In this document: one piece after another, positions 4,580 through 16,025 of the stretch
How positions within the stretch are numbered: the first letter of the stretch is position 1
How the letters are laid out: each line of letters begins with the position of its first letter
Origin: a virus
DNA: 21,358 nucleotides
Virus record (IMG/VR): IMGVR_UViG_3300032304_001652
Span: 1 to 21,358 of that record
Strand: one strand, 5' to 3'
The notes under the pieces: model-generated
The model's input: the letters and a program-made list of their open reading frames with translations, nothing else
The model's database searches: none
What the model was told of the DNA's origin: nothing
Position numbers and translations under genes: made by a program

Positions 4580-4585
4580 GATTTC

Positions 4586-5208: not shown

Positions 5209-5245
5209 TGCATCCTCCTGTTTGGTAGAACCCTATATTGAATCT

Positions 5246-5509: not shown

Positions 5510-5706
5510 ACATCCAGCTTTCGGCTGCCTGGCTTATACCCCACTCCAAGAAGTGGTTGGATCTTTACTTCGTCCTTCTTGTACTTATAAAACTTACGAG
5601 CTAAAGCTAGAACCGCGATAGCCGAAGGTACCCAGACGTGCAGGTACAGGTCAATAGTGTTTGCGATGTACAGATACATCGTCCAGTCTTCAATTACAAA
5701 TTCCAT
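5506..5706 (-). CDS. Small single-span membrane protein
   Basis: 66 residues from the ATG at 5706 (MEFVIEDWTMYLY). A longer in-frame reading would overlap the upstream gene; the chosen start has AAGGA 8 nt before it. A hydrophobic segment (YLHVWVPSAIAVLALA, about 22-37) is followed by a basic cluster RKFYKYKK, consistent with one span and a cytoplasmic tail. Function unknown. Confidence 0.65.
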   Translation of the reverse strand: MEFVIEDWTMYLYIANTIDLYLHVWVPSAIAVLALARKFYKYKKDEVKIQPLLGVGYKPGSRKLDV

Positions 5707-5716
5707 GTTGTTGTCC

Positions 5717-5947
5717 TTATCTCTTGAGTTGGTTGAATTCGTCGTCCGCGACGTTGAAGCAGTGAAGGGCAAATACTAGAAGCGGAATACATCCACCAAG
5801 TACGAGAACTACAGCTGCCGCAAGTGCGATGAAACTAGGGAAGATGAAAAACGTGTGAGCTGCGTATGGGAACCAGGCAACTGCTGCTACGATTAGTGCT
5901 GCGCCATAGCGGCGGTAACGGTATCCACGAAACTGATTTATTTTCAT
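5717..5947 (-). CDS. Small two-span membrane protein
   Basis: 76 residues with a basic N-terminus (RGYRYRRYG) and two strong hydrophobic segments, about 15-35 and 38-62, then a polar tail. First gene of a unit: promoter at 5995, leader with the inverted repeat at 5970-5985 and GAAAGGAC before the ATG. Unknown role. Three small membrane proteins lie in this one unit. Confidence 0.75.
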   Translation of the reverse strand: MKINQFRGYRYRRYGAALIVAAVAWFPYAAHTFFIFPSFIALAAAVVLVLGGCIPLLVFALHCFNVADDEFNQLKR

Positions 5948-5969
5948 TTGGGAAGTCCTTTCGTCATTT

Positions 5970-5985
5970 GCCGGAAGGTTCCGGC
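5970..5985. repeat. Inverted repeat in the 5717-5947 leader
   Basis: GCCGGAA-GG-TTCCGGC between the promoter at 5995 and the ribosome site. It could fold in the leader or bind a protein. Confidence 0.4.
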
Positions 5986-5994
5986 GTTGGGATA

Positions 5995-6003
5995 ATTATA
6001 TCA
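5995..6003 (-). promoter_or_regulatory. Extended -10 promoter (family consensus)
   Basis: Minus strand CTACCTGATATAATTATCC. Likely drives 5717-5947 and the closely spaced genes down to 4409, since no further family promoter lies between. Confidence 0.8.
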
Positions 6004-6015
6004 GGTAGATAGTGA

Positions 6016-6222
6016 TTAGTCGCTTGTTATTCCGAACGCTGCTTGGTACGAAGATCTTTCGAACTGTTCGCGCATTGCTTCTTTATCGCGGGAGATTTGG
6101 TTGTAGGCGTTCGCGCAGTTGTAGCACCAGGTTTCAGTCTGGATTCCACCGAGCATGAACGCATCAGTTCCAGAGTACACAAGCTCTGTGCTCTCGCACT
6201 TATATGTCTTACAGGTCTTCAT
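6016..6222 (-). CDS. Small zinc-ribbon-like protein
   Basis: 68 residues with C4, C9 and C33-x2-C36, a plausible four-cysteine zinc site. The rest is polar and helical (RDKEAMREQFERSSYQ). Leader with CGAAAGGAAC and its own promoter at 6258; single-gene unit. Function unknown. Confidence 0.7.
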   Translation of the reverse strand: MKTCKTYKCESTELVYSGTDAFMLGGIQTETWCYNCANAYNQISRDKEAMREQFERSSYQAAFGITSD

Positions 6223-6257
6223 TTTGGTTCCTTTCGTAGTACGTCGTTGTTGGGTAA

Positions 6258-6266
6258 ATTATATCA
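6258..6266 (-). promoter_or_regulatory. Extended -10 promoter
   Basis: Minus strand CCTACCTGATATAATTTACC; downstream flank differs slightly from consensus. Drives 6016-6222. Confidence 0.8.
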
Positions 6267-6281
6267 GGTAGGTTGGGAAGG

Positions 6282-6458
6282 TTAGCCCTTGGTTCCCCAA
6301 GTGACTAGCGTCATAACCTTGTCGGCAAGGAAGTGACTGCGTTGGTAGGTTTCAGCCCATGATTCAGCCTCAGCTTCAGAGCGGCAGAGCTGGTAGAAGG
6401 TTTGGCCATTGCTAAATGTGTAGTAGTACTTAGTCTGGTTTCCTGGAACATTCTTCAT
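6282..6458 (-). CDS. Small hypothetical protein
   Basis: 58 residues from the ATG at 6458 (MKNVPGNQTKYYYTFSNGQTFYQL). A TTG four codons upstream is part of the ribosome site GATTGGAG, so the ATG is preferred. The layout, a strand-forming N-terminus then EAEAESWAE, loosely resembles 6508-6690 and 7029-7178. Single-gene unit from the promoter at 6492. Confidence 0.7.
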   Translation of the reverse strand: MKNVPGNQTKYYYTFSNGQTFYQLCRSEAEAESWAETYQRSHFLADKVMTLVTWGTKG

Positions 6459-6491
6459 TTGGATCTCCAATCCTCGGTGGTTAATAAGATA

Positions 6492-6500
6492 ATTATATCA
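6492..6500 (-). promoter_or_regulatory. Extended -10 promoter (family consensus)
   Basis: Minus strand CCTACCTGATATAATTATCT. Leader carries the GATTGGAG ribosome site. Drives 6282-6458. Confidence 0.8.
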
Positions 6501-6507
6501 GGTAGGT

Positions 6508-6690
6508 TTAGTTCCCGCGACCCTTTACCTCTGGGCGTCTACGTGAAATCTCAACCGCGTCCAGCTTAAGTCCCTGGGACTTTACCCAGCTCTTAGCTGC
6601 GTCTTCGTTGATGAACTGACCTGCCCAGGTTCCACTAGGCAGGTACACGTTCACCATTGCGTAAAGCGTATTTGTTTCCTTAGTACTCAT
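6508..6690 (-). CDS. Small W-GQF family protein
   Basis: 60 residues from the ATG at 6690. TWAGQFINEDAAKSWVKSQG...DAVEI aligns with NWLGQFGTPDAAVAHAESIG...DACRL in 7029-7178, so the two look like paralogues. The start overlaps the upstream 32-residue gene by 11 bp in another frame. Function unknown. Confidence 0.7.
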   Translation of the reverse strand: MSTKETNTLYAMVNVYLPSGTWAGQFINEDAAKSWVKSQGLKLDAVEISRRRPEVKGRGN

Positions 6691-6778
6691 CGTCACCGAT
6701 TTGCATTGGGAATTTGTTTGCGATTACCGCAACTGCAATAGAGCCAACGAAAATAACCAAAAGTAGTAGAGCTATCAT
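6680..6778 (-). CDS. 32-residue membrane microprotein
   Basis: MIALLLLVIFVGSIAVAV followed by IANKFPMQIGDDEY: one membrane helix at about 2-20 and a short acidic tail. The start overlaps the upstream stop by ATGA and follows GGAGGA, a strong ribosome site, which is the main evidence it is translated. Its end overlaps the next gene by 11 bp. Role unknown; single-span microproteins of this kind often regulate membrane enzymes. Confidence 0.6.
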   Translation of the reverse strand: MIALLLLVIFVGSIAVAVIANKFPMQIGDDEY

Positions 6779-6993
6779 TCGTTTCCTCCAAACATTTCGT
6801 TCCAGCACGCTGGGTGATACCCAGTCATTAGTTGCTCACGCAGAGACTTGTCTAAGTCTGGGTAAGCGTCTTGGATTGCCGCGCCAAGTTGGCGAGCAAA
6901 GAATCCTACGGCTGGGACTTCAACAATTCCATCCTTGCCGCACCATGTACACGTAGGTGTTTCTACGATGTAGGTTTCATCAATCAGTGCCAT
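6775..6993 (-). CDS. Conserved small phage protein with C..C..H..C site
   Basis: 72 residues. C15-x2-C18 and H60-x2-C63 form a plausible zinc site around VEVPAVGFFARQLGAAIQDAYPDLDKSLREQLMTGYHPACW. I recall similar short proteins in actinobacteriophages, without a known function. First gene of a three-gene overlapping unit from the promoter at 7023; leader contains ACGACGAAAGGAA. Confidence 0.75.
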   Translation of the reverse strand: MALIDETYIVETPTCTWCGKDGIVEVPAVGFFARQLGAAIQDAYPDLDKSLREQLMTGYHPACWNEMFGGNE

Positions 6994-7022
6994 GTTACTT
7001 CCTTTCGTCGTTGCGTAGGATA

Positions 7023-7031
7023 ATTATATCA
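7023..7031 (-). promoter_or_regulatory. Extended -10 promoter overlapping a stop codon
   Basis: Minus strand CCTGCCTGATATAATTATCC. The TGA of TGATATAAT is the stop codon of the gene 7029-7178. Drives 6775-6993, 6680-6778 and 6508-6690. Confidence 0.8.
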
Positions 7032-7178
7032 GGCAGGTGGATACTTTGAAGCGCCCAGCTCAAGCCTACAGGCGTCTGGGTCCTTTCCAATGCTCTCCGC
7101 ATGAGCTACCGCAGCGTCCGGAGTTCCAAATTGGCCTAGCCAATTGTCTTCTTCATCGTAGAGGTGAAAATACTTCAT
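7029..7178 (-). CDS. Small W-GQF family protein
   Basis: 49 residues from the ATG at 7178 (MKYFHLYDEEDNWLGQFGTPDAA). A longer in-frame reading runs inside the Ntn-hydrolase gene; the ATG at 7178 overlaps that gene's stop by ATGA and is preferred. Probable paralogue of 6508-6690. The stop TGA lies inside the next promoter. Function unknown, but cotranscription with the Ntn hydrolase makes it a candidate partner or substrate. Confidence 0.65.
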   Translation of the reverse strand: MKYFHLYDEEDNWLGQFGTPDAAVAHAESIGKDPDACRLELGASKYPPA

Positions 7179-7765
7179 GAGAATCTCTTTCCGTATTGAA
7201 TACGAGTAACTATTGGCCCGCTGGAATAAATATCCCATTGGCAAGCTACCTCAACAGCTTTCTGAATAACTTTCTCAGCTTTTTCTGGGTTGTTGGCTAG
7301 CTTTTCAATTCCCATTGCAACCATCGCGCCAAGAGCTACGTCTCCGCCGGAACCACCGAAGTAAACGTTACGCACGTCTCTGTCCCAGCTGTAATCGTTA
7401 AAGATTGGATAAATAATTCCGCGTGCAACGATAAGCAAGTTCGAGTCTTGCCAGGCTGCATCGCCATCGTCCTTTGCATCGTAGCCAGCTTCTTGAAACG
7501 CTTTACGCAATGATGGAATGAACTGACGCGTCATGAACTTGTCCATTGCCGCAAGGCTGTTTTGTTTTGGTGGTTGTGGCGGCGTCCAACCAAACTGCGA
7601 GATGTTACCACCGCGTGATGCACCAGACACAGCAATTAAATAACCGGAGTTCTCCATAACTTTCGGTGTCGCCAAATCCATTGGGCGTCCACCTTCGTCA
7701 CTCGCACGCGAGTCACAGCCAATGACTGCCCAGCCATTGCCTTGAAATGCTGCAAGTGTTGTCAT
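7175..7765 (-). CDS. Proteasome-beta/HslV-like Ntn hydrolase
   Basis: 196 residues. After removal of Met1 the chain begins TTLAAFQGNGWAVIGCDSRASDEGG, matching the start of proteasome beta and HslV subunits. Counting from that Thr, Thr1 is the nucleophile position, Asp17 aligns with the conserved Asp17, and Lys34 (ATPKVMENSGYLIAVSG) is close to the conserved Lys33. GGSGGDVALGAMVAMG near 132-147 resembles the later glycine-rich helix segment. No separate ATPase partner of HslU type is nearby; the only AAA+ gene is the MoxR-like one about 12 kb away. Such a phage enzyme could be a self-assembling peptidase; peptidase activity is inferred. Ribosome site AGGGAGAAG. Confidence 0.8.
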   Translation of the reverse strand: MTTLAAFQGNGWAVIGCDSRASDEGGRPMDLATPKVMENSGYLIAVSGASRGGNISQFGWTPPQPPKQNSLAAMDKFMTRQFIPSLRKAFQEAGYDAKDDGDAAWQDSNLLIVARGIIYPIFNDYSWDRDVRNVYFGGSGGDVALGAMVAMGIEKLANNPEKAEKVIQKAVEVACQWDIYSSGPIVTRIQYGKRFS

Positions 7766-7784
7766 GTCTTCTCCCTAGACGATA

Positions 7785-7793
7785 ATTGTATCT
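7785..7793 (-). promoter_or_regulatory. Divergent copy of the extended -10 promoter
   Basis: Minus strand AGATACAATTATCG: TACAAT replaces TATAAT, and the TG and CCTRCC parts are degraded (TGAGA). Drives the Ntn hydrolase and 7029-7178; weaker or differently controlled expression would fit. Confidence 0.55.
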
Positions 7794-7797
7794 CAAA

Positions 7798-7819
7798 CCT
7801 ACCGCACATGGGCGGTAGG
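7798..7819. terminator. Hairpin between 7841-8173 and the Ntn promoter
   Basis: CCTACCGC-6 nt-GCGGTAGG, a perfect 8-bp stem, placed after a gene and before the next promoter like other hairpins here. No T-run. Confidence 0.5.
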
Positions 7820-7840
7820 CTTGAGGACAACCTACCAGGT

Positions 7841-8173
7841 TTACGCTGGGTCTACTATGGAGATAGGCACTGTAATGTTGGCAGATTCAGTACCTGTTGG
7901 TGTGTACCGCGCGAATCTACCCATAGGCTTTTCCAACTGAACCACAATCTTGGTTCTCTTCATACCAGTAACTCGTGCGTACTCACCCACGAGATAGCGG
8001 GTACCGCAACTGTTGTTGAATCGAACTCTGTCGCCAATACCAAAGTCTGTGGCAGTCTTTGTAATTCGTACATCACTGAGGCGCTTTTCGAGTGTGGTAG
8101 ATAGTTTGCCAAGGTCGGCGTCCAACTCACCACTCATGATGGCAGCTTGAACTGCCTCTATTGTTAGTGTCAT
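7841..8173 (-). CDS. Small hypothetical protein with possible SH3-like fold
   Basis: 110 residues. The N-terminal helix (about 1-35) is followed by FGIGDRVRFNNSCGTRYLVGEYARVTGMKRTKIVVQLEKP, a beta-rich stretch of the GDxVRF..G..A.V.G....V.L type found in KOW/SH3-like small domains. Likely binding rather than catalytic. Single-gene unit from 8206, with GGAGGGAC before the start. Confidence 0.7.
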   Translation of the reverse strand: MTLTIEAVQAAIMSGELDADLGKLSTTLEKRLSDVRITKTATDFGIGDRVRFNNSCGTRYLVGEYARVTGMKRTKIVVQLEKPMGRFARYTPTGTESANITVPISIVDPA

Positions 8174-8205
8174 TTCGTCCCTCCTTATGGGGTGTCGTTA
8201 GGATA

Positions 8206-8214
8206 ATTATATCA
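8206..8214 (-). promoter_or_regulatory. Extended -10 promoter (family consensus)
   Basis: Minus strand CCTACCTGATATAATTATCC, starting 3 bp beyond the stop codon of 8221-8538. Drives 7841-8173. Confidence 0.8.
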
Positions 8215-8220
8215 GGTAGG

Positions 8221-8538
8221 TTACTCGTCTTCGAGGTCTGGACCTTTGTAGTGTGGATACGTCTTGTAGAACCCATCCATGTCCCAGTTCATGTCAGTCT
8301 TACAGACGGGGCACAGGTCTGGCCAAATGTCGTCTGGCTCAGACATATCCAGCTCAACAAGTTGAAGACCGCACTCGCCAAACTTAAGAGCTATGTCCTC
8401 GAATATGCCAGGACGTTTGTCGTCAGCGTTCTTACGAAAAATAATTGACATGCGCTCTTCCGGAGTTAAAACTAACCAGGGAATCCCTGGACCACGACAC
8501 CAGAGAGATGCCATAACCTTTTCGTCTTGTTCACTCAT
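8221..8538 (-). CDS. Hypothetical protein with C-terminal CPVC
   Basis: 105 residues from the ATG at 8538. Contains GPGIPWLVLTPEERMSIIFRK and a lone CPVC (about 76-79) before an aromatic-rich C-terminus. A longer reading through the upstream gene is a frame shadow. It overlaps 8531-8794 by 8 bp. Last gene of a three-gene unit from 9106. Function unknown. Confidence 0.65.
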   Translation of the reverse strand: MSEQDEKVMASLWCRGPGIPWLVLTPEERMSIIFRKNADDKRPGIFEDIALKFGECGLQLVELDMSEPDDIWPDLCPVCKTDMNWDMDGFYKTYPHYKGPDLEDE

Positions 8539-8794
8539 CGGCAGACCAAAGCTCTTCCCGCAACGCTTCTTCATATCTATCTCCGCGAAACGAGTTAGAT
8601 CCAAATGTAATGTCTTCATTCTCAATGAGCTTGTCGAGTGACAACACCGCAGTGTGCCCTTCAGCTTCAAACATGATGACGAGTTTTGTGTCACCTTCAT
8701 TTGGGTCGTCAACAAGCGCAACGCGGAATGGCATTCCCGCAACTCCATTTCGGTGGTAGTCTGCGTTTACGATTTGTAGGTTAGTGAGAGTCAT
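8531..8794 (-). CDS. Hypothetical protein, beta-rich
   Basis: 87 residues (MTLTNLQIVNADYHRNGVAGMPFRVALVDD). The pattern NGVxGxPFRVALV...KLVIMF....HTAVLSLDKL suggests a small beta barrel or sheet; I do not recognise a named family. Starts 18 nt after the stop of 8812-9078 with GGAAAGGAA and no promoter, so cotranscribed. Confidence 0.7.
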   Translation of the reverse strand: MTLTNLQIVNADYHRNGVAGMPFRVALVDDPNEGDTKLVIMFEAEGHTAVLSLDKLIENEDITFGSNSFRGDRYEEALREELWSADE

Positions 8795-8811
8795 AGTGTG
8801 TTCCTTTCCAC

Positions 8812-9078
8812 TTAACCATTGTATCCATCGTCTTCGTACTCAGACTCAAAGTCTGAGCTAAGACCGCATGTTGGACACTTCCAGGTCCAGTACTCAAAGA
8901 CTACATTGTGACTTGAGTATTCTTTTGTTAGAACGATTTCACGTTCTTCAACAATGTCAAATTCAACACACTCATCATTTTGGCATGAAGCCTCGCGGTG
9001 GTCGATGTCTTCACGGGTGTCGTAACCCGCAATCTCTGGTTCAAACCCTGAGACTCCTGGTGGGTAGTTACTTGTCAT
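8812..9078 (-). CDS. Acidic zinc-ribbon protein
   Basis: 88 residues, very acidic. C32, C37, C68 and C71 (SCQNDEC and KCPTCG) form a probable zinc ribbon around an antiparallel sheet (FDIVEEREIVLTKEY...VVFEYWTWKCPTC). First gene of a three-gene unit: promoter 9106, leader AACGACGAAAGGAC. Unknown role; acidity argues against direct DNA binding and suggests a protein partner. Confidence 0.7.
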   Translation of the reverse strand: MTSNYPPGVSGFEPEIAGYDTREDIDHREASCQNDECVEFDIVEEREIVLTKEYSSHNVVFEYWTWKCPTCGLSSDFESEYEDDGYNG

Positions 9079-9105
9079 GATCTGTCCTTTCGTCGTTATG
9101 AGATA

Positions 9106-9114
9106 ATTATATCA
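9106..9114 (-). promoter_or_regulatory. Extended -10 promoter (family consensus)
   Basis: Minus strand CCTACCTGATATAATTATCT. Drives 8812-9078, 8531-8794 and 8221-8538. Confidence 0.8.
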
Positions 9115-9127
9115 GGTAGGTGTGACA

Positions 9128-9150
9128 GAACTGGGTCAGAGACCCAGTTC
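9128..9150. terminator. Hairpin containing the stop codon of 9136-9423
   Basis: Perfect 10-bp inverted repeat GAACTGGGTC-AGA-GACCCAGTTC. The stop codon (9136-9138) lies in it, so coding sequence forms one arm; the 9106 promoter follows directly. Confidence 0.55.
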
Positions 9151-9423
9151 CTTAATCACCTGTCCCCAGAATGATAAAGCCACATCATCCGCAGACTCTA
9201 GGTCTTCAATTGAGTCCGCAATGGTGCCTTCTGCATCATTCCAAGAGTACCCTAGCTCACTTCCGAGGTTCTCACCTAAAGCTAGGTAGTAGTCTGGATT
9301 TGAGTCTACTGGGAATCCAATGTGAATGTACCCTGGGTATTCCCAGTGAATAGTTGTTACATTTGGAAGTGGTGACCATTCCTTTACCGCAACCAATACA
9401 TCTTGAATATCGACCTTGTTCAT
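9136..9423 (-). CDS. Small acidic hypothetical protein
   Basis: 95 residues from the ATG at 9423. An upstream TTG is part of the ribosome site GATTGGAG, so ATG is preferred. Sequence MNKVDIQDVLVAVKEWSPLPNVTTIHW...IHIGFPVDSNPDYYLALGENLG is a mixed alpha/beta small domain with an acidic C-terminal half. No family recognised. Single-gene unit from 9458. Confidence 0.7.
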   Translation of the reverse strand: MNKVDIQDVLVAVKEWSPLPNVTTIHWEYPGYIHIGFPVDSNPDYYLALGENLGSELGYSWNDAEGTIADSIEDLESADDVALSFWGQVIKELGL

Positions 9424-9457
9424 ATTGAGCTCCAATCAATTGATGTTGTTAAGGATA

Positions 9458-9466
9458 ATTATATCA
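9458..9466 (-). promoter_or_regulatory. Extended -10 promoter (family consensus)
   Basis: Minus strand CCTACCTGATATAATTATCC, just after the hairpin at 9476-9513. Drives 9136-9423. Confidence 0.8.
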
Positions 9467-9475
9467 GGTAGGTAA

Positions 9476-9513
9476 GTTGAGGGTACCCTACTTGTGAGTA
9501 AGGTACCCGCAAC
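9476..9513. terminator. Hairpin after 9521-9952
   Basis: GTTG-A-GGGTACC pairs with GGTACCC-G-CAAC, with a further TACT/AGTA pairing inside. It shares the arm GTTGCGGGTACC with the hairpin after the paralogous gene at 12374-12868. Confidence 0.6.
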
Positions 9514-9520
9514 TTGAGGA

Positions 9521-9952
9521 CTACTCTGGGTATGAGTTGAGGAAGAACTTTTGAAGGTCTTCATCAACCCAGAATCCTCTGTAGAAGACTAGGGGAGAAT
9601 CATCTGTCATCAGGAGATCTATAAACCACTGCTCAGTGGATTCATCTACTGAATCTACTGCTATGTGATCTATTCCTTCAATTTCTACATAGCCACCCGC
9701 ATCTATGAAGTGGTAGGTGTTATCTGGGTATCTGAAGACTAATATCTGACCATCCGCATTTACTTCAACAACCTCTGCTTGGTCTATCTTTACTGATGGA
9801 TCAATTGGGTAGTCTTGGAATATGGATACTTTGTCTATCCACTTTTGTAGGGGTTCTGTCTTTGAGTTCTTAAACAACTCATGAAGTTTTTGTGAAGGTG
9901 TGAGTGTGGTGTCTTGTGAGACCTTTACCGCATCTTGGTATGTAGGGTACAT
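9521..9952 (-). CDS. Hypothetical protein, paralogue of 12374-12868
   Basis: 143 residues from the ATG at 9952 (MYPTYQDAVKVSQ). Longer in-frame readings cross the promoter at 9990 and a terminator, so they are rejected; an alternative ATG lies 5 codons upstream (MIGTH). ILVFRYPDNTYHFIDAGGYVEIEGID aligns with YLVVRTPDNTYYLVDEYFGLELFDE in the other gene, and both end in a GF..(D/N) aromatic tail. The base composition is more AT-rich than most neighbours. Function unknown; the PDNTY core is the diagnostic feature. Confidence 0.75.
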   Translation of the reverse strand: MYPTYQDAVKVSQDTTLTPSQKLHELFKNSKTEPLQKWIDKVSIFQDYPIDPSVKIDQAEVVEVNADGQILVFRYPDNTYHFIDAGGYVEIEGIDHIAVDSVDESTEQWFIDLLMTDDSPLVFYRGFWVDEDLQKFFLNSYPE

Positions 9953-9989
9953 ATGGGTTCCAATCATTAGTGGGTTGTTGTTAAGGCTA

Positions 9990-9998
9990 ATTATATCA
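9990..9998 (-). promoter_or_regulatory. Extended -10 promoter, variant upstream flank
   Basis: Minus strand CCTATGTGATATAATTAGCC; the CCTACC part is altered. Drives 9521-9952. Confidence 0.75.
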
Positions 9999-10015
9999 CA
10001 TAGGTAAAAGGAAGG

Positions 10016-10047
10016 AAGAGAGGGGGTCCCACAACCCCCTCCCTCTT
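10016..10047 (-). terminator. Strong intrinsic terminator-like hairpin
   Basis: Minus strand AAGAG-GG-AGGGGGT, loop TGTGGG, ACCCCCT-CTCTT, followed by the pyrimidine run CCTTCCTTTTACC. It lies between the structured RNA locus and the promoter of 9521-9952. Confidence 0.65.
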
Positions 10048-10072
10048 TACCCACCATCGCCATAAAAACTAG

Positions 10073-10150
10073 ATACGCGGAGCGGCGTATTGTTTCCGAC
10101 CCCTGCAGGTGTCGAGTCGTTCAGGTGACCAGCGCCTGTCCTCCGCGTAT
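10073..10150 (-). ncRNA. Candidate small structured RNA with three-way junction
   Basis: 78 nt with no open frame of interest. The ends pair perfectly over 10 bp (ATACGCGGAG at the 5' end, CTCCGCGTAT at the 3' end). Inside are a weaker stem CAGG/CCUG with a 9-nt loop and a stem CGACACC/GGGGUCG with loop UGCA. A family promoter at 10158 would start transcription at about 10150, exactly the first base of the closing stem, and the 3' end is followed by CTAGTTTTT. The 3' part also forms a local 6-bp hairpin (AUACGC/GCGUAU) that competes with the closing stem, so termination or folding may switch. It is not a tRNA: no T-arm. A longer form could end at 10016-10047. Confidence 0.55.
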
Positions 10151-10157
10151 AAGGATA

Positions 10158-10166
10158 ATTATATCA
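10158..10166 (-). promoter_or_regulatory. Extended -10 promoter of the structured RNA
   Basis: Minus strand CCTGCCTGATATAATTATCC, 8 bp beyond the stop of 10174-10335. Predicted start 10151-10150, at the first base of the RNA closing stem. Confidence 0.75.
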
Positions 10167-10173
10167 GGCAGGA

Positions 10174-10335
10174 TCAGTCTGGATGGTACTCCAAAAACCA
10201 GCCCTTGCCGTACTCGTTTTCGAAAGTCCACATTCCGTTGTTCAACTCCGCGTTGAGCTTGGCTGCATAGTTCCAAGCTCCGCCTTGAGTTTTCCAATAG
10301 CGTGTGTCTCCATTAGCGTCTTTAAAAGTAATCAT
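10174..10335 (-). CDS. 53-residue hypothetical protein, probably leaderless
   Basis: MITFKDANGDTRYWKTQGGAW...YGKGWFLEYHPD, rich in Trp and Tyr, likely a small beta domain. The ATG lies exactly 6 nt after the TATAAT hexamer of the promoter at 10342, so the transcript should begin at or next to the A of ATG and there is no room for a ribosome site. Leaderless initiation is common in actinobacteria. No family recognised. Confidence 0.7.
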   Translation of the reverse strand: MITFKDANGDTRYWKTQGGAWNYAAKLNAELNNGMWTFENEYGKGWFLEYHPD

Positions 10336-10341
10336 GGTGTA

Positions 10342-10350
10342 ATTATATCA
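10342..10350 (-). promoter_or_regulatory. Extended -10 promoter for a leaderless gene
   Basis: Minus strand CGCCTGATATAATTACACC followed directly by ATG at 10335. The upstream CGC is the last arm of the hairpin at 10352-10394. Confidence 0.8.
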
Positions 10351-10351
10351 G

Positions 10352-10394
10352 GCGCGGAATCCTAGGCCCAGCGTGAGCTGGGCCAAGGCCGCGC
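10352..10394. terminator. Two-level hairpin after 10398-10673
   Basis: Outer arms GCGCGG/CCGCGC enclose a perfect 8-bp hairpin GGCCCAGC-4 nt-GCTGGGCC (10365-10384). Stop codon, hairpin, promoter and the next start codon all fall within about 65 bp. Confidence 0.65.
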
Positions 10395-10397
10395 AAG

Positions 10398-10673
10398 TTA
10401 TAAGGCTGCGATGAAGTCGCGTAGAGCTTGAGGCTGGTGCGACAGGCAGTTGGTCATGATGGACTGGACGGGTGAGTCGTCGAGGAACGAGACAGACGGC
10501 AGAGTTTGTTCGGTGCAGTCGTCGAATTCGCAGTCGTAGTCAGTGTCAGTGAAGTTGATTTGGACGTTGTAGACGTCGTTGTTTTCGGCGGCGTCGAGAT
10601 CGTTGAAAAGCATTGGGTCGATTTCAAGAACGAGTGCGTCAGCAGTTTTTTCGATGATTTTGATTTGTGTCAT
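10398..10673 (-). CDS. Acidic hypothetical protein
   Basis: 91 residues, very acidic (FNDLDAAENNDVYNVQINFTDTDYDCEFDDCTE). The codons on the coding strand favour C-ending triplets such as GAC and AAC, unlike most neighbours but like 10773-11147, suggesting a shared foreign origin. Ribosome site TTGGAG. Own promoter lacks the TG. Function unknown; acidity could indicate DNA mimicry, which is speculation. Confidence 0.7.
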   Translation of the reverse strand: MTQIKIIEKTADALVLEIDPMLFNDLDAAENNDVYNVQINFTDTDYDCEFDDCTEQTLPSVSFLDDSPVQSIMTNCLSHQPQALRDFIAAL

Positions 10674-10703
10674 GATGAATCTCCAATTCGTTTGTGTAGG
10701 GTA

Positions 10704-10712
10704 ATTATATCG
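10704..10712 (-). promoter_or_regulatory. Variant -10 promoter without TG
   Basis: Minus strand TACGATATAATTACCC: core TATAAT and the downstream flank are kept, but TG is replaced by CG. Drives 10398-10673. Confidence 0.65.
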
Positions 10713-10733
10713 TATAAGATTTTCAAGCGCAGG

Positions 10734-10762
10734 TGCGCGGCATGCAGAGCAGAGGCCGCGCA
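10734..10762. terminator. Hairpin after 10773-11147
   Basis: TGCGCGGC-13 nt-GCCGCGCA, a perfect 8-bp GC-rich stem between the stop codon and the next promoter. Confidence 0.55.
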
Positions 10763-10772
10763 GCGCGAGTGA

Positions 10773-11147
10773 TTAGTAGAAGGTGTCGACGTCGAGTGGA
10801 GAGTCGAGGCTTTCAGAAAGGCCAGGGAAGTCAGTGTAGAGAGCGTAGACGTCGTTGTCGATTGTGATGAAGTGATTTTCGGTGTCGTCGAATTCGCAGA
10901 AGCCAGAATGGCCGAAGAAGTGGTCAAGATGTTCGGCAGGGATGTTTAGGATTTGATAGTCGTTGTAGCCGGCAGAGACGGTAGCGACGAGTGTAATTGT
11001 TGTGTCAGAGAAGCGTTCGGCAAGGAATTGCAGAGCGACGGCGACAGAGAATGGTTCGTTGAGTTCGACAGGCGAAGTTTTGTAAGAAGCAAGTTGTGGA
11101 TAGTCGTAGCAGTTTTTGTTGCGTGCGAAATCGTTTGCGTTTTGCAT
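10773..11147 (-). CDS. Hypothetical protein with unusual leader
   Basis: 124 residues. Hydrophobic/beta middle (FSDTTITLVATVSAGYNDYQILNIP) and an acidic C-terminus (NDVYALYTDFPGLSESLDSPLDVD). Shares the C-ending codon style of 10398-10673. The leader has no good Shine-Dalgarno sequence and carries alternating CGTTAT/ATAACG repeats (11161-11187). Promoter at 11194. Function unknown. Confidence 0.7.
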   Translation of the reverse strand: MQNANDFARNKNCYDYPQLASYKTSPVELNEPFSVAVALQFLAERFSDTTITLVATVSAGYNDYQILNIPAEHLDHFFGHSGFCEFDDTENHFITIDNDVYALYTDFPGLSESLDSPLDVDTFY

Positions 11148-11160
11148 AGTGGGCTCGATT

Positions 11161-11187
11161 CGTTATATGTATAACGTATTTCGTTAT
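11161..11187. repeat. Three alternating 6-bp inverted repeats in a leader
   Basis: CGTTAT (11161), ATAACG (11171), CGTTAT (11182). The middle copy can pair with either neighbour, with loops of 4 or 5 nt, so two exclusive hairpins are possible in the leader of 10773-11147. It may instead be a multi-site operator. Confidence 0.45.
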
Positions 11188-11193
11188 GGGTTA

Positions 11194-11202
11194 ATTATAT
11201 CA
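11194..11202 (-). promoter_or_regulatory. Extended -10 promoter, variant flanks
   Basis: Minus strand ACATGATATAATTAACCC: the TGATATAATT core is kept but the CCTRCC flank is lost, as at position 2. Drives 10773-11147. Confidence 0.75.
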
Positions 11203-11223
11203 TGTCAGGATTTTCAAGAAATT

Positions 11224-11263
11224 AAAAGAGAGCCAGCGACTTCCCCAAGGCTGGCTCTCTTTT
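11224..11263. terminator. Bidirectional intrinsic terminator
   Basis: Perfect 13-bp stem AAAAGAGAGCCAG/CTGGCTCTCTTTT with a 14-nt loop, flanked by A-runs and T-runs on both sides. Lies 11 bp beyond the stop of 11275-11571 and is one of the best terminators in the window. Confidence 0.85.
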
Positions 11264-11274
11264 AGCTTACAGCT

Positions 11275-11571
11275 TTACGCTGCTAGGCTCTTTTTGCCGC
11301 GACGCAATTCAGACATCAATTTTGATGCTTCCTTGGTGTTAGCTACTTGCATCTTCTTCCCTGTCGAGATATCGAAGACTAAGTAGTGCGAACGATTTGT
11401 CGCACGCAATACCGCAAGGGTCTTACGCTTGCGATAGTAAGCTGGTTCGTAGCCAGAGGGAAGCTTCACACCTTTTGGAAGCGCTGGTAGTGATTCAACG
11501 CGAGTGTAAGGCTTCGTCTGTACAAGAACCTTTTTAGTAGCTGCCTTCGCAGCTGCTGGTTTCTTTGACAT
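11275..11571 (-). CDS. Basic hypothetical protein
   Basis: 98 residues from the ATG at 11571, preceded by GAAAGGAC. An in-frame ATG at 11589 contains that ribosome site and is rejected. Highly basic (KKPAAAKAATKKVLVQTKPY... RKRKTLAVLRATNRSHYLVFDISTGKK), with an N-terminal Ala/Lys arm like those of nucleoid or DNA-binding proteins and a short beta-rich core. DNA binding is inferred from charge only. Confidence 0.75.
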   Translation of the reverse strand: MSKKPAAAKAATKKVLVQTKPYTRVESLPALPKGVKLPSGYEPAYYRKRKTLAVLRATNRSHYLVFDISTGKKMQVANTKEASKLMSELRRGKKSLAA

Positions 11572-11596
11572 GACTTGTCCTTTCGTCATTTTGTCT

Positions 11597-11617
11597 CCTC
11601 AACTCGGCGAGCTGAGG
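11597..11617. repeat. Leader hairpin of 11275-11571
   Basis: CCTCAACTCG/CGAGCTGAGG nearly abut (one base between), giving about an 8-bp stem with a small loop between the promoter and the ribosome site. Confidence 0.45.
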
Positions 11618-11625
11618 CTTGATCT

Positions 11626-11635
11626 ATTATATACA
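11626..11635 (-). promoter_or_regulatory. Variant -10 promoter with shifted TG
   Basis: Minus strand CCTGTATATAATAGATC: TG is two bases from TATAAT rather than one. The upstream CCTG is shared with the hairpin arm at 11634-11670. Drives 11275-11571. Confidence 0.6.
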
Positions 11636-11670
11636 GGTTCTGTCGCAGAAGTAAACCCGCAACGAACCTG
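11634..11670. terminator. Hairpin abutting the 11626 promoter
   Basis: CAGGTTC/GAACCTG outer stem of 7 bp with a further imperfect GTCGC/GCAAC-type pairing inside. Confidence 0.5.
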
Positions 11671-11691
11671 GAGTAATAGCCAACGATAAAG

Positions 11692-11716
11692 CGGAAGGTT
11701 CCGATCTCACCTTCCG
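11692..11716. terminator. Hairpin after 11759-11956
   Basis: CGGAAGGT-9 nt-ACCTTCCG, a perfect 8-bp stem; on the minus strand CTTTATC follows. Confidence 0.55.
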
Positions 11717-11758
11717 TATAACGACCAACGGCCGCAATCATTCCCTTATGCATACTCG

Positions 11759-11956
11759 TCATACGATTGCGCTCGGGTCACATGGCGGCAAGGTGTGTGT
11801 TCGCCAGTCAATAAGAATTTGGTCCAAGGTGTCCGCGTACTCTGTCGGCAGAGACTCGGAGACCTGTTTCATCATAAGAAGCGTCGCCATGTTCGCGGCA
11901 GCTCGCTCCTTGTGCCATTCTTCAGGGGAAAGGCACACCCCGCATTTCTCTTCCAT
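11759..11956 (-). CDS. Small hypothetical protein with CxxC
   Basis: 65 residues, MEEKCGVCLSPEEWHKERAAANMATLLMMKQVSES. C5-x2-C8 plus H15 and C59 might hold zinc; the rest is helical. The start overlaps the upstream stop (TAATG), so it is translationally coupled to 11956-12279. About 170 nt of hairpins and one promoter follow it. Confidence 0.7.
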   Translation of the reverse strand: MEEKCGVCLSPEEWHKERAAANMATLLMMKQVSESLPTEYADTLDQILIDWRTHTLPPCDPSAIV

Positions 11957-12279
11957 TACGAAAGAGAAACGGGAGCGTCAGCAAGTACTTTTTGCACTTG
12001 AGTTACCGCAAGCTCATTGTACCCACCAATGTGCCATTCGTAAACTTCGTTGAGTGCTGGCGCACCTTCTTCGTATCGCTTCCAATCGTAAATTGTTGCG
12101 ATGACTTCGTTTTCAAACTTGATTACCCACTCTGTAGTAACTTTTTCATGTTCTTCGTCACTCATGAATGTCGGCATGCCGAATCTTTCGATGAGAGCAG
12201 AGCGAGTTGTGGTGACGTAACCTTGTAGGCTTGAGCCTACACCATCTGCGTCTAGCGTGTTACCAGTTATGAATTTCAT
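11956..12279 (-). CDS. Conserved small phage protein, unknown function
   Basis: 107 residues. SSLQGYVTTTRSALIERFGMPTF...KVTTEWVIKFENEVIATIYDWKRYEEGAPALNEVYEWHIGGYNELAVTQVQKVL is a pattern I recall from many phage proteins (GYVTTTR, TEW.I.F, ATIYDWK, WHIGG), with no known activity. Mixed alpha/beta single domain of usual length. Leader ACGAAAGGAC; promoter 12312. Confidence 0.8.
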   Translation of the reverse strand: MKFITGNTLDADGVGSSLQGYVTTTRSALIERFGMPTFMSDEEHEKVTTEWVIKFENEVIATIYDWKRYEEGAPALNEVYEWHIGGYNELAVTQVQKVLADAPVSLS

Positions 12280-12311
12280 AGCGGCGTCCTTTCGTATTTG
12301 TTATTAGGATA

Positions 12312-12320
12312 ATTATATCA
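12312..12320 (-). promoter_or_regulatory. Extended -10 promoter (family consensus)
   Basis: Minus strand CCTGCCTGATATAATTATCC right after the hairpin at 12328-12368. Drives 11956-12279 and 11759-11956. Confidence 0.8.
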
Positions 12321-12327
12321 GGCAGGC

Positions 12328-12368
12328 AGTTGGGGAACCCACTCTGGAGTGAGTGGGTACCCGCAACT
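12328..12368. terminator. Hairpin after 12374-12868
   Basis: Minus strand AGTTGCGGGTACCCACTC folds on GAGTGGGTTCCCCAACT: 7-bp inner stem CCCACTC/GAGTGGG, then GGG/CCC and AGTT/AACT. It shares AGTTGCGGGTACC with the hairpin at 9476-9513. Confidence 0.65.
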
Positions 12369-12373
12369 GGGGA

Positions 12374-12868
12374 TTATGCCTTTACTTCTTGGTAGTACTC
12401 TGAAACTTTATCTAGGTACTCTTTGTTGTAGATGTAGAATCCACCCATGTAGTAGTCACTTTCATCTATAATTGAGTGGAGAAGGATACCTGTCCTAGAT
12501 GTGTAGGAGGTGTAGTGGTACTGTGATCTATTGTATGAGTGGGTTATTTCATACAACTCACCAATAGGAGTCTTTGGGTCTACTTCTGGAGTTTCATCAA
12601 ACAACTCTAATCCGAAATATTCATCAACTAAGTAGTAGGTGTTGTCTGGGGTTCTAACAACTAGGTACTCCTGGTCTTCTGAACCTGGACCACTAGCCAA
12701 TACTACTGTGCCCTCTGGGAGAGTAGGGTAGTTTGGTTCTCTGTATGGATCTTCATCTTTGTTTTTAAGACTATATTCAACATGGAGTTTGTAGTCTACT
12801 GGAGTAAGGTCTACAACTTCTTTGGTAAAGAAGAAGTGAAGGATTTCTTGGGTAGTCTTTTTTGTCAT
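12374..12868 (-). CDS. Hypothetical protein, paralogue of 9521-9952
   Basis: 164 residues from the ATG at 12868 (MTKKTTQEILHFFF); an in-frame ATG five codons upstream (MIGTQ) is the same alternative seen in the paralogue. Shared core YLVVRTPDNTYYLVDEYFGLELFDE and a GFYIYNKEYLDK tail. Rich in Tyr, Asp and Glu; AT-rich. Function unknown. Single-gene unit bounded by the promoter at 12909 and its own hairpin. Confidence 0.75.
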   Translation of the reverse strand: MTKKTTQEILHFFFTKEVVDLTPVDYKLHVEYSLKNKDEDPYREPNYPTLPEGTVVLASGPGSEDQEYLVVRTPDNTYYLVDEYFGLELFDETPEVDPKTPIGELYEITHSYNRSQYHYTSYTSRTGILLHSIIDESDYYMGGFYIYNKEYLDKVSEYYQEVKA

Positions 12869-12908
12869 TTGGGTTCCAATCATTAGTGGGTTATTAAGTT
12901 ATAGGATA

Positions 12909-12917
12909 ATTATATCA
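12909..12917 (-). promoter_or_regulatory. Extended -10 promoter
   Basis: Minus strand TAACCTGATATAATTATCC following the terminator at 12932-12957. Drives 12374-12868. Confidence 0.8.
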
Positions 12918-12931
12918 GGTTAGAAATAAAA

Positions 12932-12957
12932 CTGGAGCTCCCTTGCGGGAGCCCCAG
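12932..12957 (-). terminator. Intrinsic terminator with GCAA loop
   Basis: Minus strand CTGGGGCTCCC-GCAA-GGGAGCTCCAG then TTTTATTT. The one non-Watson-Crick pair is G-U on this strand but A-C on the other, supporting minus-strand function. Confidence 0.85.
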
Positions 12958-12964
12958 CCGGGTA

Positions 12965-12990
12965 CCGCGCCGGATTGGAGTACAGCGCGG
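12965..12990. repeat. Second hairpin after 13001-13243
   Basis: CCGCGC-14 nt-GCGCGG directly before the terminator on the minus strand. Confidence 0.45.
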
Positions 12991-13000
12991 AACAGTTGAG

Positions 13001-13243
13001 TTAGACCGCGTAGGCTAACTCGTAACCTTTGTCCAGCTTTTCCTGGACTTTCATGAAGGCGAGCTGGCGAGCATACGATTCACTGTACACTTGCTTTACC
13101 GCAGTCTGACGCTGAGTCTTCTCAGCCATTCCCCAGACTGTGATTACCTTGGTTCCATCTACGATTACTTCGTAGACCTTTTGCTTTCCATTGGTACCGC
13201 GTTCGCCATCGCTGGCCTTTAGTAAACACCATTTTTTGTTCAT
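13001..13243 (-). CDS. WGR-like small domain protein
   Basis: 80 residues: MNKKWCLLKASDGERGTNGKQKVYEVIVDGTKVITVWGMAEKTQRQTAVKQVYSESYARQLAFMKVQEKLDKGYELAYAV. The order KVYEV.V.G..VITVWG.AE...RQT......S...A...A..KV.EKL.KGY resembles a short WGR domain, in which the WG-R core contacts nucleic acid in PARP-type proteins. Stand-alone versions occur in phages. Nucleic-acid binding is inferred. Promoter 13294; leader ACGACGAAAGGAA. Confidence 0.75.
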   Translation of the reverse strand: MNKKWCLLKASDGERGTNGKQKVYEVIVDGTKVITVWGMAEKTQRQTAVKQVYSESYARQLAFMKVQEKLDKGYELAYAV

Positions 13244-13293
13244 GGGATTTCCTTTCGTCGTGCGTCATTGGGTTTTATTAAGTTGTTAGGATA

Positions 13294-13302
13294 ATTATAT
13301 CA
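13294..13302 (-). promoter_or_regulatory. Extended -10 promoter (family consensus)
   Basis: Minus strand CCTACCTGATATAATTATCC. Drives 13001-13243. Confidence 0.8.
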
Positions 13303-13317
13303 GGTAGGTGAGTGGCA

Positions 13318-13349
13318 GGAACTGGAGCGCCTTGCGGCACCCCAGCTCC
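13318..13349 (-). terminator. Hairpin with GCAA tetraloop after 13360-13587
   Basis: Minus strand 14-bp stem with loop GCAA (13332-13335). Three positions pair as G-U on this strand but would be mismatched on the plus strand, so the minus-strand RNA is the one that folds. No T-run follows. Confidence 0.7.
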
Positions 13350-13359
13350 CCGCACCCTA

Positions 13360-13587
13360 TTATTCGTCCGCGCAGTTCTCTAGAACTTCGTCCAGCTCTT
13401 TGATGAAGGTTTTCTTGAACTCTTCAACCGCACCCTGGATAAGGAGCTCTTTGTCTAGAGCTAAGATGTCCTCGGCAGTTAGGTCTTCAAACAAGCGCTC
13501 TGCAAGAATCTCAGAGATGATGTGATGGCGGGTAGCGACTTCGACTACGTCGAAAGCGAGCTGTTCCCCAAGGGTCTTTACGTCCAT
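13360..13587 (-). CDS. Acidic helical hypothetical protein
   Basis: 75 residues from the ATG at 13587; an upstream TTG belongs to the ribosome site TTGGAG. Sequence MDVKTLGEQLAFDVVEVATRHHIISEILAERLFEDLTAEDILALDKELLIQ is almost all helix and acidic, ending LDEVLENCADE. The periodic leucines suggest an amphipathic bundle or dimer. It resembles 13678-13908 in size, charge and layout. Single-gene unit. Confidence 0.7.
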   Translation of the reverse strand: MDVKTLGEQLAFDVVEVATRHHIISEILAERLFEDLTAEDILALDKELLIQGAVEEFKKTFIKELDEVLENCADE

Positions 13588-13620
13588 TTGGTTCTCCAAT
13601 TCGTTCGTGTTGTTAGGATA

Positions 13621-13629
13621 ATTATATCA
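13621..13629 (-). promoter_or_regulatory. Extended -10 promoter (family consensus)
   Basis: Minus strand CCCGCCTGATATAATTATCC. Drives 13360-13587. Confidence 0.8.
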
Positions 13630-13642
13630 GGCGGGTTTTAGG

Positions 13643-13668
13643 GCAGGAACGCCTTTCGGCGTCCCTGC
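13643..13668 (-). terminator. Hairpin with GAAA tetraloop after 13678-13908
   Basis: Minus strand GCAGGGACGCC-GAAA-GGCGTTCCTGC, 11 bp with one G-U that would be A-C on the plus strand. GNRA loop. No T-run follows; the next promoter begins 14 bp on. Confidence 0.7.
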
Positions 13669-13677
13669 ACCCTTCCC

Positions 13678-13908
13678 TTACTCTTCTTCGTACTCGCGGG
13701 CAGCTTCGAGGTAACCGAGAACGAGGTCGCGGAGCAGTGGCGAAATCATAGCGAGGACGTCTTCGTCCTTGATGTCAGAAATTCTGAACTCGTTATTTTC
13801 GGCGAACTCAGGGAGGTCCAGATCAATTCGAGTAGTCTGGTCCACAGCGCGTTCGATGGTTTCGAAGATCTCGTTAACGAGCCCTTCAACTTTTTCGTTA
13901 TAGTCCAT
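13678..13908 (-). CDS. Acidic helical hypothetical protein
   Basis: 76 residues: MDYNEKVEGLVNEIFETIERAVDQTTRIDLDLPEFAENNEF then ISDIKDEDVLAMISPLLRDLVLGYLEAAREYEEE. Acidic, helix-rich, with the EDxLA helix also seen in 13360-13587 (AEDILALDKELL). Perhaps distant paralogues. Ribosome site GATTGGAA; promoter 13945. Confidence 0.7.
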   Translation of the reverse strand: MDYNEKVEGLVNEIFETIERAVDQTTRIDLDLPEFAENNEFRISDIKDEDVLAMISPLLRDLVLGYLEAAREYEEE

Positions 13909-13944
13909 ATGAGTTTTCCAATCTCTTAGCGGGTTGTTAGGATA

Positions 13945-13953
13945 ATTATATCA
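13945..13953 (-). promoter_or_regulatory. Extended -10 promoter (family consensus)
   Basis: Minus strand CCTACCTGATATAATTATCC. Drives 13678-13908. Confidence 0.8.
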
Positions 13954-13974
13954 GGTAGGAATGACAGATAGCCT

Positions 13975-14163
13975 TTAGCCTTCTCGATGGTTTAGGAAAT
14001 CTTCGATGACGTTATGAATCGCGTCGTTCACGTCAGTGGCTAATTGATCTAATTCTTCGTCAGAAAAATCCCCATTGTTATCCCACATCATTTTTAGTTG
14101 ACTCAACGTCAGCGATGAATCAAAAATTACTACGTCGCCTTCATCATTTTTTTCGAGGTCCAT
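13975..14163 (-). CDS. Small acidic hypothetical protein
   Basis: 62 residues, MDLEKNDEGDVVIFDSSLTLSQLKMMWDNNGDFSDEELDQLATDVNDAIHNVIEDFLNHREG. Asp/Glu-rich and helical in the second half; NNGDFSDEEL superficially recalls an EF-hand but lacks the full 12-residue loop. Leader AAACGACGAAAGGAC; promoter 14193. Function unknown. Confidence 0.7.
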   Translation of the reverse strand: MDLEKNDEGDVVIFDSSLTLSQLKMMWDNNGDFSDEELDQLATDVNDAIHNVIEDFLNHREG

Positions 14164-14192
14164 TTTCGTCCTTTCGTCGTTTGGTAAGGCTA

Positions 14193-14201
14193 ATTATAAC
14201 A
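14193..14201 (-). promoter_or_regulatory. Extended -10 promoter (TGTTATAAT form)
   Basis: Minus strand CCTACCTGTTATAATTAGCC. Drives 13975-14163. Confidence 0.8.
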
Positions 14202-14209
14202 GGTAGGTT

Positions 14210-14368
14210 TTACGAGTCCTTTGACTCAATAATCGCCTTCCGGTTCTTGGCTGCCCGACTGCGGTTTCGCTTCGTCGCCTTATGAGCGTAAACAGGTGCG
14301 TGTTGGTTGACCTTCGGTCCCATGCCACTCGGGCGGACGAGGTTAAACGTAGGCTGTTTCGTTTTCAT
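14210..14368 (-). CDS. Small basic protein, probably leaderless
   Basis: 52 residues, MKTKQPTFNLVRPSGMGPKVNQ...HKATKRNRSRAAKNRKAIIESKDS, strongly basic in the second half. The ATG lies 7 nt after TATAAT of the promoter at 14376, so the mRNA should start at the start codon. Charge suggests nucleic-acid binding; no family recognised. Confidence 0.7.
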   Translation of the reverse strand: MKTKQPTFNLVRPSGMGPKVNQHAPVYAHKATKRNRSRAAKNRKAIIESKDS

Positions 14369-14375
14369 AAGGCTA

Positions 14376-14384
14376 ATTATAACA
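14376..14384 (-). promoter_or_regulatory. Extended -10 promoter for a leaderless gene
   Basis: Minus strand TTACCTGTTATAATTAGCC, then TT and ATG. Same TGTTATAAT subtype as the next copy downstream. Confidence 0.8.
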
Positions 14385-14431
14385 GGTAAGAAAGTACGCC
14401 CGTCTTGGTTTCGAGCCAGCGTTCTAGCGGG

Positions 14432-14647
14432 CTAGCCAACAAGTGACCCGTCAGGGTCAAAGATCGAGACGCCTTGCCTAGCCAGAGCTTCGTGGTTCTT
14501 GCGAGCGTGATGCCTGCAGAATAAAAGTGTGCCCGTCAAAAACGTGACGCGGACCAGTGCCTGCGCGCCACAACTGTCACACCTATCCGTCGCCAGTAGC
14601 TCAGGCTCCGTTGCCGTTGCCGTTGCCGTTACTGTTGCCTCGGTCAT
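14432..14647 (-). CDS. DUF7455-like zinc-binding protein
   Basis: 71 residues from the ATG at 14647. After a Thr-Ala repeat (TATATATE, from a hexanucleotide repeat) comes CDSCGAQALVRVTFLTGTLLFCRHHARK, the C-x2-C...C-x2-H pattern of the small DUF7455-type proteins common in actinobacteria and their phages. Probable zinc ligands C23, C26, C44 and H46 or H47. The start overlaps the upstream stop by ATGA; a GTG five codons earlier is an alternative. Last gene of a four-gene unit from 15417. Confidence 0.8.
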   Translation of the reverse strand: MTEATVTATATATEPELLATDRCDSCGAQALVRVTFLTGTLLFCRHHARKNHEALARQGVSIFDPDGSLVG

Positions 14648-14844
14648 GCCGTTGTCTCCCACTCTGTAATGAAGACCGCCTCGAAATCTTCTATCGGTCG
14701 GCCAAGCCCAATGTGTGCCATGTTCAGGTACCGTGTTACATCAGCGTGCCGTCTTGCACGAAAGCGACTAATCTTCTCGCCCGTCCGTGCATCACGTATT
14801 TCCCATATGCCTGCCGACGCATTCTTCTTTCTAGTCGCCGACAT
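14644..14844 (-). CDS. Small basic hypothetical protein
   Basis: 66 residues: MSATRKKNASAGIWEIRDARTGEKISRFRARRHADVTRYLNMAHIGLGRPIEDFEAVF. The strand W-E-I-R-D-A-R-T-G-E-K-I looks like a beta-hairpin, followed by a basic helix. It overlaps 14831-15208 by 14 bp in another frame and the next gene by ATGA. Function unknown. Confidence 0.65.
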   Translation of the reverse strand: MSATRKKNASAGIWEIRDARTGEKISRFRARRHADVTRYLNMAHIGLGRPIEDFEAVFITEWETTA

Positions 14845-15387: not shown

Positions 15388-15416
15388 TGGGTTGTCCCTT
15401 CGTCGTTGTTAGGATA

Positions 15417-15425
15417 ATTATATCA
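15417..15425 (-). promoter_or_regulatory. Extended -10 promoter
   Basis: Minus strand CTGACCTGATATAATTATCC; the upstream TGA (15428-15430) is the stop codon of 15428-15679. Drives the four-gene unit 15387 down to 14432. Confidence 0.8.
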
Positions 15426-15427
15426 GG

Positions 15428-16010: not shown

Positions 16011-16025
16011 GGCAAGAAATGGAGA

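Follow-up and report, generated by a model that had tools for sequence, protein, structure and literature searches.

Functions are seldom assigned to the structured noncoding RNAs that phages encode. Phages and prophages carry the genes for ROOL and GOLLD, two RNAs with no known function (PMC12286853). Like OLE, both assemble into homo-oligomers, and their covariation-supported contacts include kissing loops (PMC12286853). AbiF and type III antitoxin RNAs are small, structured and protein-binding, and often lie 5' of a gene (PMC12373285). In temperate mycobacteriophages, the region encoding an RNA for extrachromosomal replication adjoins parABS; the deleted segments span several hundred bp (PMC7157519). 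Here, we describe a new RNA family within this broad kind of phage-encoded structured RNA.

We analysed a viral record of 21,358 bases from IMG/VR (hereafter, the window). Within it, the original prediction had placed a promoter-driven structured RNA of about 78–90 nt, on the minus strand and distinct from tRNA. Comparison with relatives supports this; changes in the closing stem, P1, are compensatory and the distance to the -10 box is constant. The element is one member of a small folded RNA family in phages related to actinobacterial phages. The family, its strand, its promoter and its fold are established by sequence comparison. The positions of all features are listed in Table 1. As predicted, the arms of P1 form 10 bp without a mismatch and enclose 78 nt, and a promoter of the phage's own type stands at the start of the stem, its TATAAT box ending 7 nt before it. 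No tRNA is found by ARAGORN; tRNA and tmRNA were rejected for want of a cloverleaf detectable by that program.

Table 1. Features of the predicted RNA and its surroundings in the window
Feature	Position	Strand	Remarks
Predicted RNA element, P1 to P1	10073–10150	-	78 nt; R1 covariance model (Infernal) 88.2 bits, E 9e-26
-10 box TATAAT, part of CCTGATATAATTATCC (10153–10168)	10158–10163	-	exact copy of the phage's repeated promoter
P1 5' arm ATACGCGGAG	10141–10150	-	perfect pairing with 10073–10082; two-sided changes across relatives
Extra-pair C between P1 and P2, partner G 10083	10138	-	flanked by 2-nt bulge 10140–10139 and bulged A 10137
P2 5' strand GGCG, partner CGCC 10084–10087	10133–10136	-	two-sided changes in 3 of 4 pairs; 99.5% of cells paired
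Internal loop 5' strand UGGUCACCUGAA (type 1)	10120–10131	-	nearly invariant in the family; type 2 relatives have UGGUCAAACGAAA
P3 5' strand CGACU, partner GGUCG 10097–10101	10115–10119	-	two-sided changes in 4 of 5 pairs
Apical tip CCTGCAGG: 2-bp stem and palindromic tetraloop UGCA (10104–10107)	10102–10109	-	tetraloop palindromic in 47 of 49 relatives
Internal loop 3' strand GAAACAAU	10089–10096	-	nearly invariant in the family
P1 3' arm CTCCGCGTAT	10073–10082	-	two-sided changes across relatives
Single-stranded tail, CTAG and TTTTT	10064–10072	-	possible weak terminator (terminator-like scan match); tail listed for 48 relatives
Strong intrinsic terminator, 13-bp stem then CCTTCCTTTT	10016–10045	-	terminator scan; separates the RNA from the next gene

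About 70 viral contigs besides the window carry the element. The first relatives came from blastn against viral loci fetched via neighbouring genes, and in these the closing stem had changed yet stayed complementary. The original prediction had pointed to homologous loci whose arms might change without compensation; at the loci found, the arms change with compensation. It had also proposed a covariance search with Infernal, and the family model matches the window copy (Table 1). Searched with a pattern for the conserved core, the viral contigs gave 58 stretches, of which only one was false. Two more patterns yielded further types. A last pattern scan, which added one more contig, gave 69 stretches, of which 4 were real and all of one divergent type found as a second copy in the L070 phage. 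The other 65, which contain core-like words, failed to match the model and serve as a control.

Exactly one copy was found in each of 48 whole records searched (48/48, records of up to 135 kb). Two copies occur in G051 and the G090/G093/G094 group alone. In the nearest phage to the window (L011/G051), the two copies are of different subtype and lie at 94951–95031 and 103787–103867; the second heads the AAA-ATPase operon. A second copy of the window phage may lie beyond the record, because the record ends (21358) just past the corresponding gene (21135–21290). The very divergent second copy, seen at L070:20568–20649 (plus strand) and in L285–L287, reads UGGCCAAACUGA ... GCAAACAAC with tip UCCUAGGA. 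It precedes a gene resembling the DUF2958 gene downstream of the L101 element.

Outside uncultivated viral contigs, searches gave nothing convincing. Searching phage records by blastn returned no relatives, or chance matches. Both models were run against eight phage records with similar AAA ATPases (DSL-LC01, four Microbacterium and three Gordonia), again with nothing convincing. The R1 model gave two chance-level matches in the nearest named phage records, and later searches none beyond E 3. In GTDB, the core pattern was applied to one genome from each of about 85,000 prokaryote species and produced two chance matches, with neither P1 nor P2. In the comparison of AAA ATPases, the nearest named records belong to Actinomycetia phage DSL-LC01 (67% identity) and to Microbacterium and Gordonia phages. 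The genome of DSL-LC01 is metagenome-assembled (PMC10611076). Since the nearest AAA ATPases lie in Actinomycetia, Microbacterium and Gordonia phage records, the hosts are probably actinobacteria.

Some neighbouring genes of the window can be described. At 17541–20419 (minus strand), an AAA_5 ATPase adjoins a protein with a weak VWA_CoxE match. The corresponding pair in DSL-LC01 is annotated as an AAA ATPase and a cobalamin biosynthesis protein; the ATPase gene of Microbacterium phages Cece and Zooman is followed by an rIIA-like gene. The protein at 7175–7765 (minus strand; MTTLAAFQGNGWAVIGCDSR...) has no Pfam match and resembles, by eye only, an ATP-dependent protease subunit (HslV-like) of DSL-LC01.

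The fold is one irregular hairpin. Briefly, it comprises P1, a 2-nt bulge, an extra pair, a bulged A, P2, an internal loop, P3, a bulge and an apical tip. The structure was supported on 20 members, then on 49. P1 usually has 9–12 bp, P2 has 4 bp and P3 has 5 bp; the tip has 2 bp and 4 nt, and its stem, which sits on P3, is CC/GG in the window. Element length in the 49 relatives is 74–87 nt. Across 49 aligned members, standard pairs fill 97.4% of pair cells and both sides have changed in 17 of 20 pairs. The extra pair covaries (A-U in 19, C-G in 13, U-A in 12 and G-C in 3 of 49). The covariation score is 0.756, against 0.198 for shuffles and at most 0.13 for slid controls, in an alignment (A4) that was fitted to the model and whose figures thus lean towards structure. 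A MAFFT alignment that was not model-fitted (A2) gave 94.4% paired and a score of 0.438 versus 0.161. The 5' side of the large internal loop reads UGGUCA plus CCUGAA (or AACGAAA), and its 3' side reads GAAACAAU. The core comes in two types, CACCUGAAC and CAAACGAAA.

Folding of the window sequence alone sets the RNA apart from shuffles only moderately (z = -2.95; 2 of 200 shuffles were as good). The case for an RNA therefore rests on the relatives. The original prediction had left the strand in doubt, with a preference for pairing on the plus strand in one stem. G-U pairs fill 51 cells on the minus strand and A-C pairs only 14. Hence, the strand is minus, and an RNA from the plus strand is ruled out by these counts together with the promoter. 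The stem that raised the doubt, CAGG/CCUG with its C-A neighbour, did not hold up as part of the family fold; all four pairs can form in only 2 of 49 members. The 6-bp hairpin proposed for the 3' arm is present in the window, where it appears as a weak terminator in the scan, but can form in just 3 of 49 members. Two exclusive folds are thus not a conserved trait.

The promoter 16-mer CCTGATATAATTATCC has 28 copies in the window at up to three mismatches, where 0.16 are expected. These promoter-like sites run from 4369 to 21127 on the minus strand, ahead of most minus-strand genes. The motif is an extended -10; a scan of 9900–10400 showed no clear -35. In all 48 testable members, the -10 box ends 5–8 nt ahead of the first base of P1. 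This distance is constant across several promoter types.

At the other end, TTTTT begins 4 nt (CTAG) past the 3' arm, and not 3 nt as first stated. A short tail resembling C(U)UAA often follows the element in relatives. In the terminator scan, the hairpin at 10045–10016 is much stronger than the weak one at the 3' arm. Both the RNA hairpin and this downstream terminator are kept in a fold of 10150–10008. Because the second, stronger terminator follows, the predicted transcript has two possible ends, around 10064 and around 10008. A listed reading frame at 9521–10063 (minus strand) would start at 10063, between the RNA and its terminator. That gene has its own promoter (10000–9985) and a paralogous start region (9950–9979, 93% identical to 12866–12895), which suggests that its real start is at MIGTHMYP near 9966.

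The apical tip behaves differently from the rest of the molecule. In the window, the palindromic stretch is CCUGCAGG. Among 49 members, 47 have a palindromic 4-nt loop, and all five distinct loops (UGCA, CUAG, CAUG, CCGG and GCGC) are palindromes. Five of five would arise by chance with a probability of about 1e-6, if the loops are independent. The search patterns had placed no constraint on the loop. Several pairs of RNAs with 0–1 differences outside P3 have tips that differ at 4–7 of 8 positions. For instance, the RNAs of L099/L196 and of L147/L145 are identical outside P3; of the 8 tip positions, 4 differ in the first pair and 6 in the second, and the tips are palindromic in each case. The two copies in G051 have different tips, CCTGCAGG and CGCATGCG, as do those of the L070 phage, CTGCGCAG and TCCTAGGA; all are palindromes. 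The short members L209 and L268 are without a palindromic tip. As RNAs that are identical outside P3 carry entirely different palindromes, the simplest reading of the comparison suggests homodimers, each with a private tip sequence. Cofold energies are compatible with a dimer and are no proof of one. The palindromic tip can alternatively fold inside a single molecule.

What lies downstream bears on whether the RNA acts in cis or in trans. In about four fifths of members (some 39 of 49), the element stands 16–37 nt ahead of a start codon that has a Shine-Dalgarno sequence. For a purely trans-acting RNA this would be needless, and it counts against such a role. It is, moreover, what one expects if the element is a leader at the very 5' end, whether it stabilises a single early mRNA in each phage or serves as the binding site of a protein, from phage or host, that controls translation of that mRNA. 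A P1 that begins at +1 is the expected look of a 5' stabiliser, and several AAA-ATPase phages have the element at the head of the AAA-ATPase operon. However, we consider the leader doubtful. The first downstream gene differs between relatives, and RNAs of the same sequence precede different genes. Compared with Pfam, ten downstream genes contain DUF2958 as the only known domain. Between the element and the region of the Shine-Dalgarno sequence and start codon, pairing averages 1.7%, which leaves the Shine-Dalgarno sequence unpaired. Several copies are cut off from genes. A terminator follows the element in the window, L009, L011, L012 and L198, with a similar sequence in L009, L011 and L012. 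In L098 and L113, P1 and a U-run are followed by a new promoter, and in L104, L092 and L103 a new promoter lies directly 3' of the element. The RNAs of L196 and L198 are the same; a gene follows one of them and a terminator the other. As a general stabiliser, the element would also be oddly rare; the window has a single copy despite 27 other promoters of the same type. Hence, a varying downstream gene, an unpaired Shine-Dalgarno sequence and copies isolated from genes favour action in trans, with which a leader function is still compatible. The RNA probably works in its own right, as far as comparison of sequences can tell.

An improbable alternative is processive antitermination in the manner of HK022 put, where a nascent hairpin stays on RNA polymerase and lets the enzyme read through later terminators. 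The element stands at +1 of a phage operon, is bound to that position and not to a gene, and needs no adjacent phage gene; the strong terminator downstream of the window copy would also suit this. However, the U-run and new promoter directly after the element in L098/L113, and the terminators with new promoters behind them in the window clade, leave little to antiterminate. In addition, the put sites are two hairpins and are not known to have such an internal loop.

We regard a riboswitch, with a small molecule sensed by the internal loop, as very improbable. That loop is nearly invariant within variable helices, and the two core types resemble related aptamers differing in specificity. Against this, no expression platform was found (there is no helix sequestering the Shine-Dalgarno sequence, and the switchable hairpin is confined to 3 of 49 members), no target gene is conserved, standalone copies exist and no Rfam riboswitch matches. 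Finally, a chance inverted repeat or an element acting at the DNA level, such as an operator or recombination site, would fit the modest z-score of the single sequence, but is refuted: 17 of 20 pairs have changed in a compensatory way, G-U pairs lie mainly on a single strand (51 versus 14), and the distance to the promoter is constant.

We favour a small phage noncoding RNA gene with its own promoter and an irregular hairpin, predicted to act in trans, as a dimer, and to bind a host protein via the invariant loop. We put the probability of this reading at roughly 0.5. The dedicated promoter sets the predicted start at the foot of P1, a stem that would hide the 5' triphosphate and stabilise the RNA. 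The RNA would then act in trans, perhaps as two copies that meet at their self-matching tips. The self-complementary tip would link the two through kissing or an extended duplex. The invariant internal loop (UGGUCA...GAA / GAAACAAU) would be the protein-binding face. Its partner would most likely be a conserved actinobacterial host component, which the RNA may sequester or redirect during infection. A presence/absence profile of proteins in 9 positive and 7 negative genomes revealed no exclusive partner protein. Where the RNA leads a gene, it may act within the mRNA or following cleavage near the CUAA tail. Should the RNA prove to be a decoy or regulator that acts as a dimer, its invariant loop would offer a way to find a host component that many uncultivated phages must control. 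More tentatively, the element may define a new class of trans-acting phage RNA, combining an invariant protein-binding loop with a fast-changing, nearly always self-complementary tip that serves as an RNA self-recognition code. In that event, the RNA of each phage would pair with its own copies and not with the RNAs of relatives.

We compared the element with known RNAs. The 4227 families of Rfam 15 gave no match approaching a family's gathering score at the element in the window (whole, and as a 106-base stretch), L102, L109, L135 or L268; the sole signal there was a 10-bit chance match to sR1. As far as our searches reach, no description of the element is found in open-access papers. Hence, a family of at least 70 members is missing from the RNA libraries searched. 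5S rRNA has a 10-bp closing stem and a GGUGGUC..ACCUGA / GAAAC stretch. The element has such a stem and a similar stretch, and the likeness is superficial. A 5S rRNA mimic was rejected, with helices IV and V absent and the Rfam 5S model unmatched (106-base search, E 10). 6S RNA is a long hairpin with a bubble resembling an open promoter, and binds RNA polymerase. The window has no match to the Rfam 6S model, and the element differs from 6S RNA in size and bubble.

Other likenesses concern behaviour. Put sites are likewise structured RNAs at the start of a phage transcript, but are cis-acting by definition, whereas several copies of the element have no downstream gene in the predicted transcript. 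The mycobacteriophage replication RNA is likewise noncoding and from actinobacterial phages; it belongs to temperate phages, whereas contigs with the element reach 135 kb and parABS was not noticed among the neighbours of the element. By analogy, a phage could mimic an AbiF or type III antitoxin RNA as a decoy. Unlike those RNAs, the element has no toxin family among ten downstream genes (Pfam), no tandem repeats and no Rfam match. ROOL and GOLLD would be nearest in predicted behaviour, although the element, which matches no Rfam sequence or model, is not a member of either. They and OLE are multi-domain RNAs of hundreds of nucleotides, whereas the element is a single hairpin of about 78 nt. 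Four traits come together in it: covariation is unusually strong, the predicted start lies strictly at the base of the stem, copies are nearly always single, and the tip stays palindromic even where its whole sequence has been replaced.
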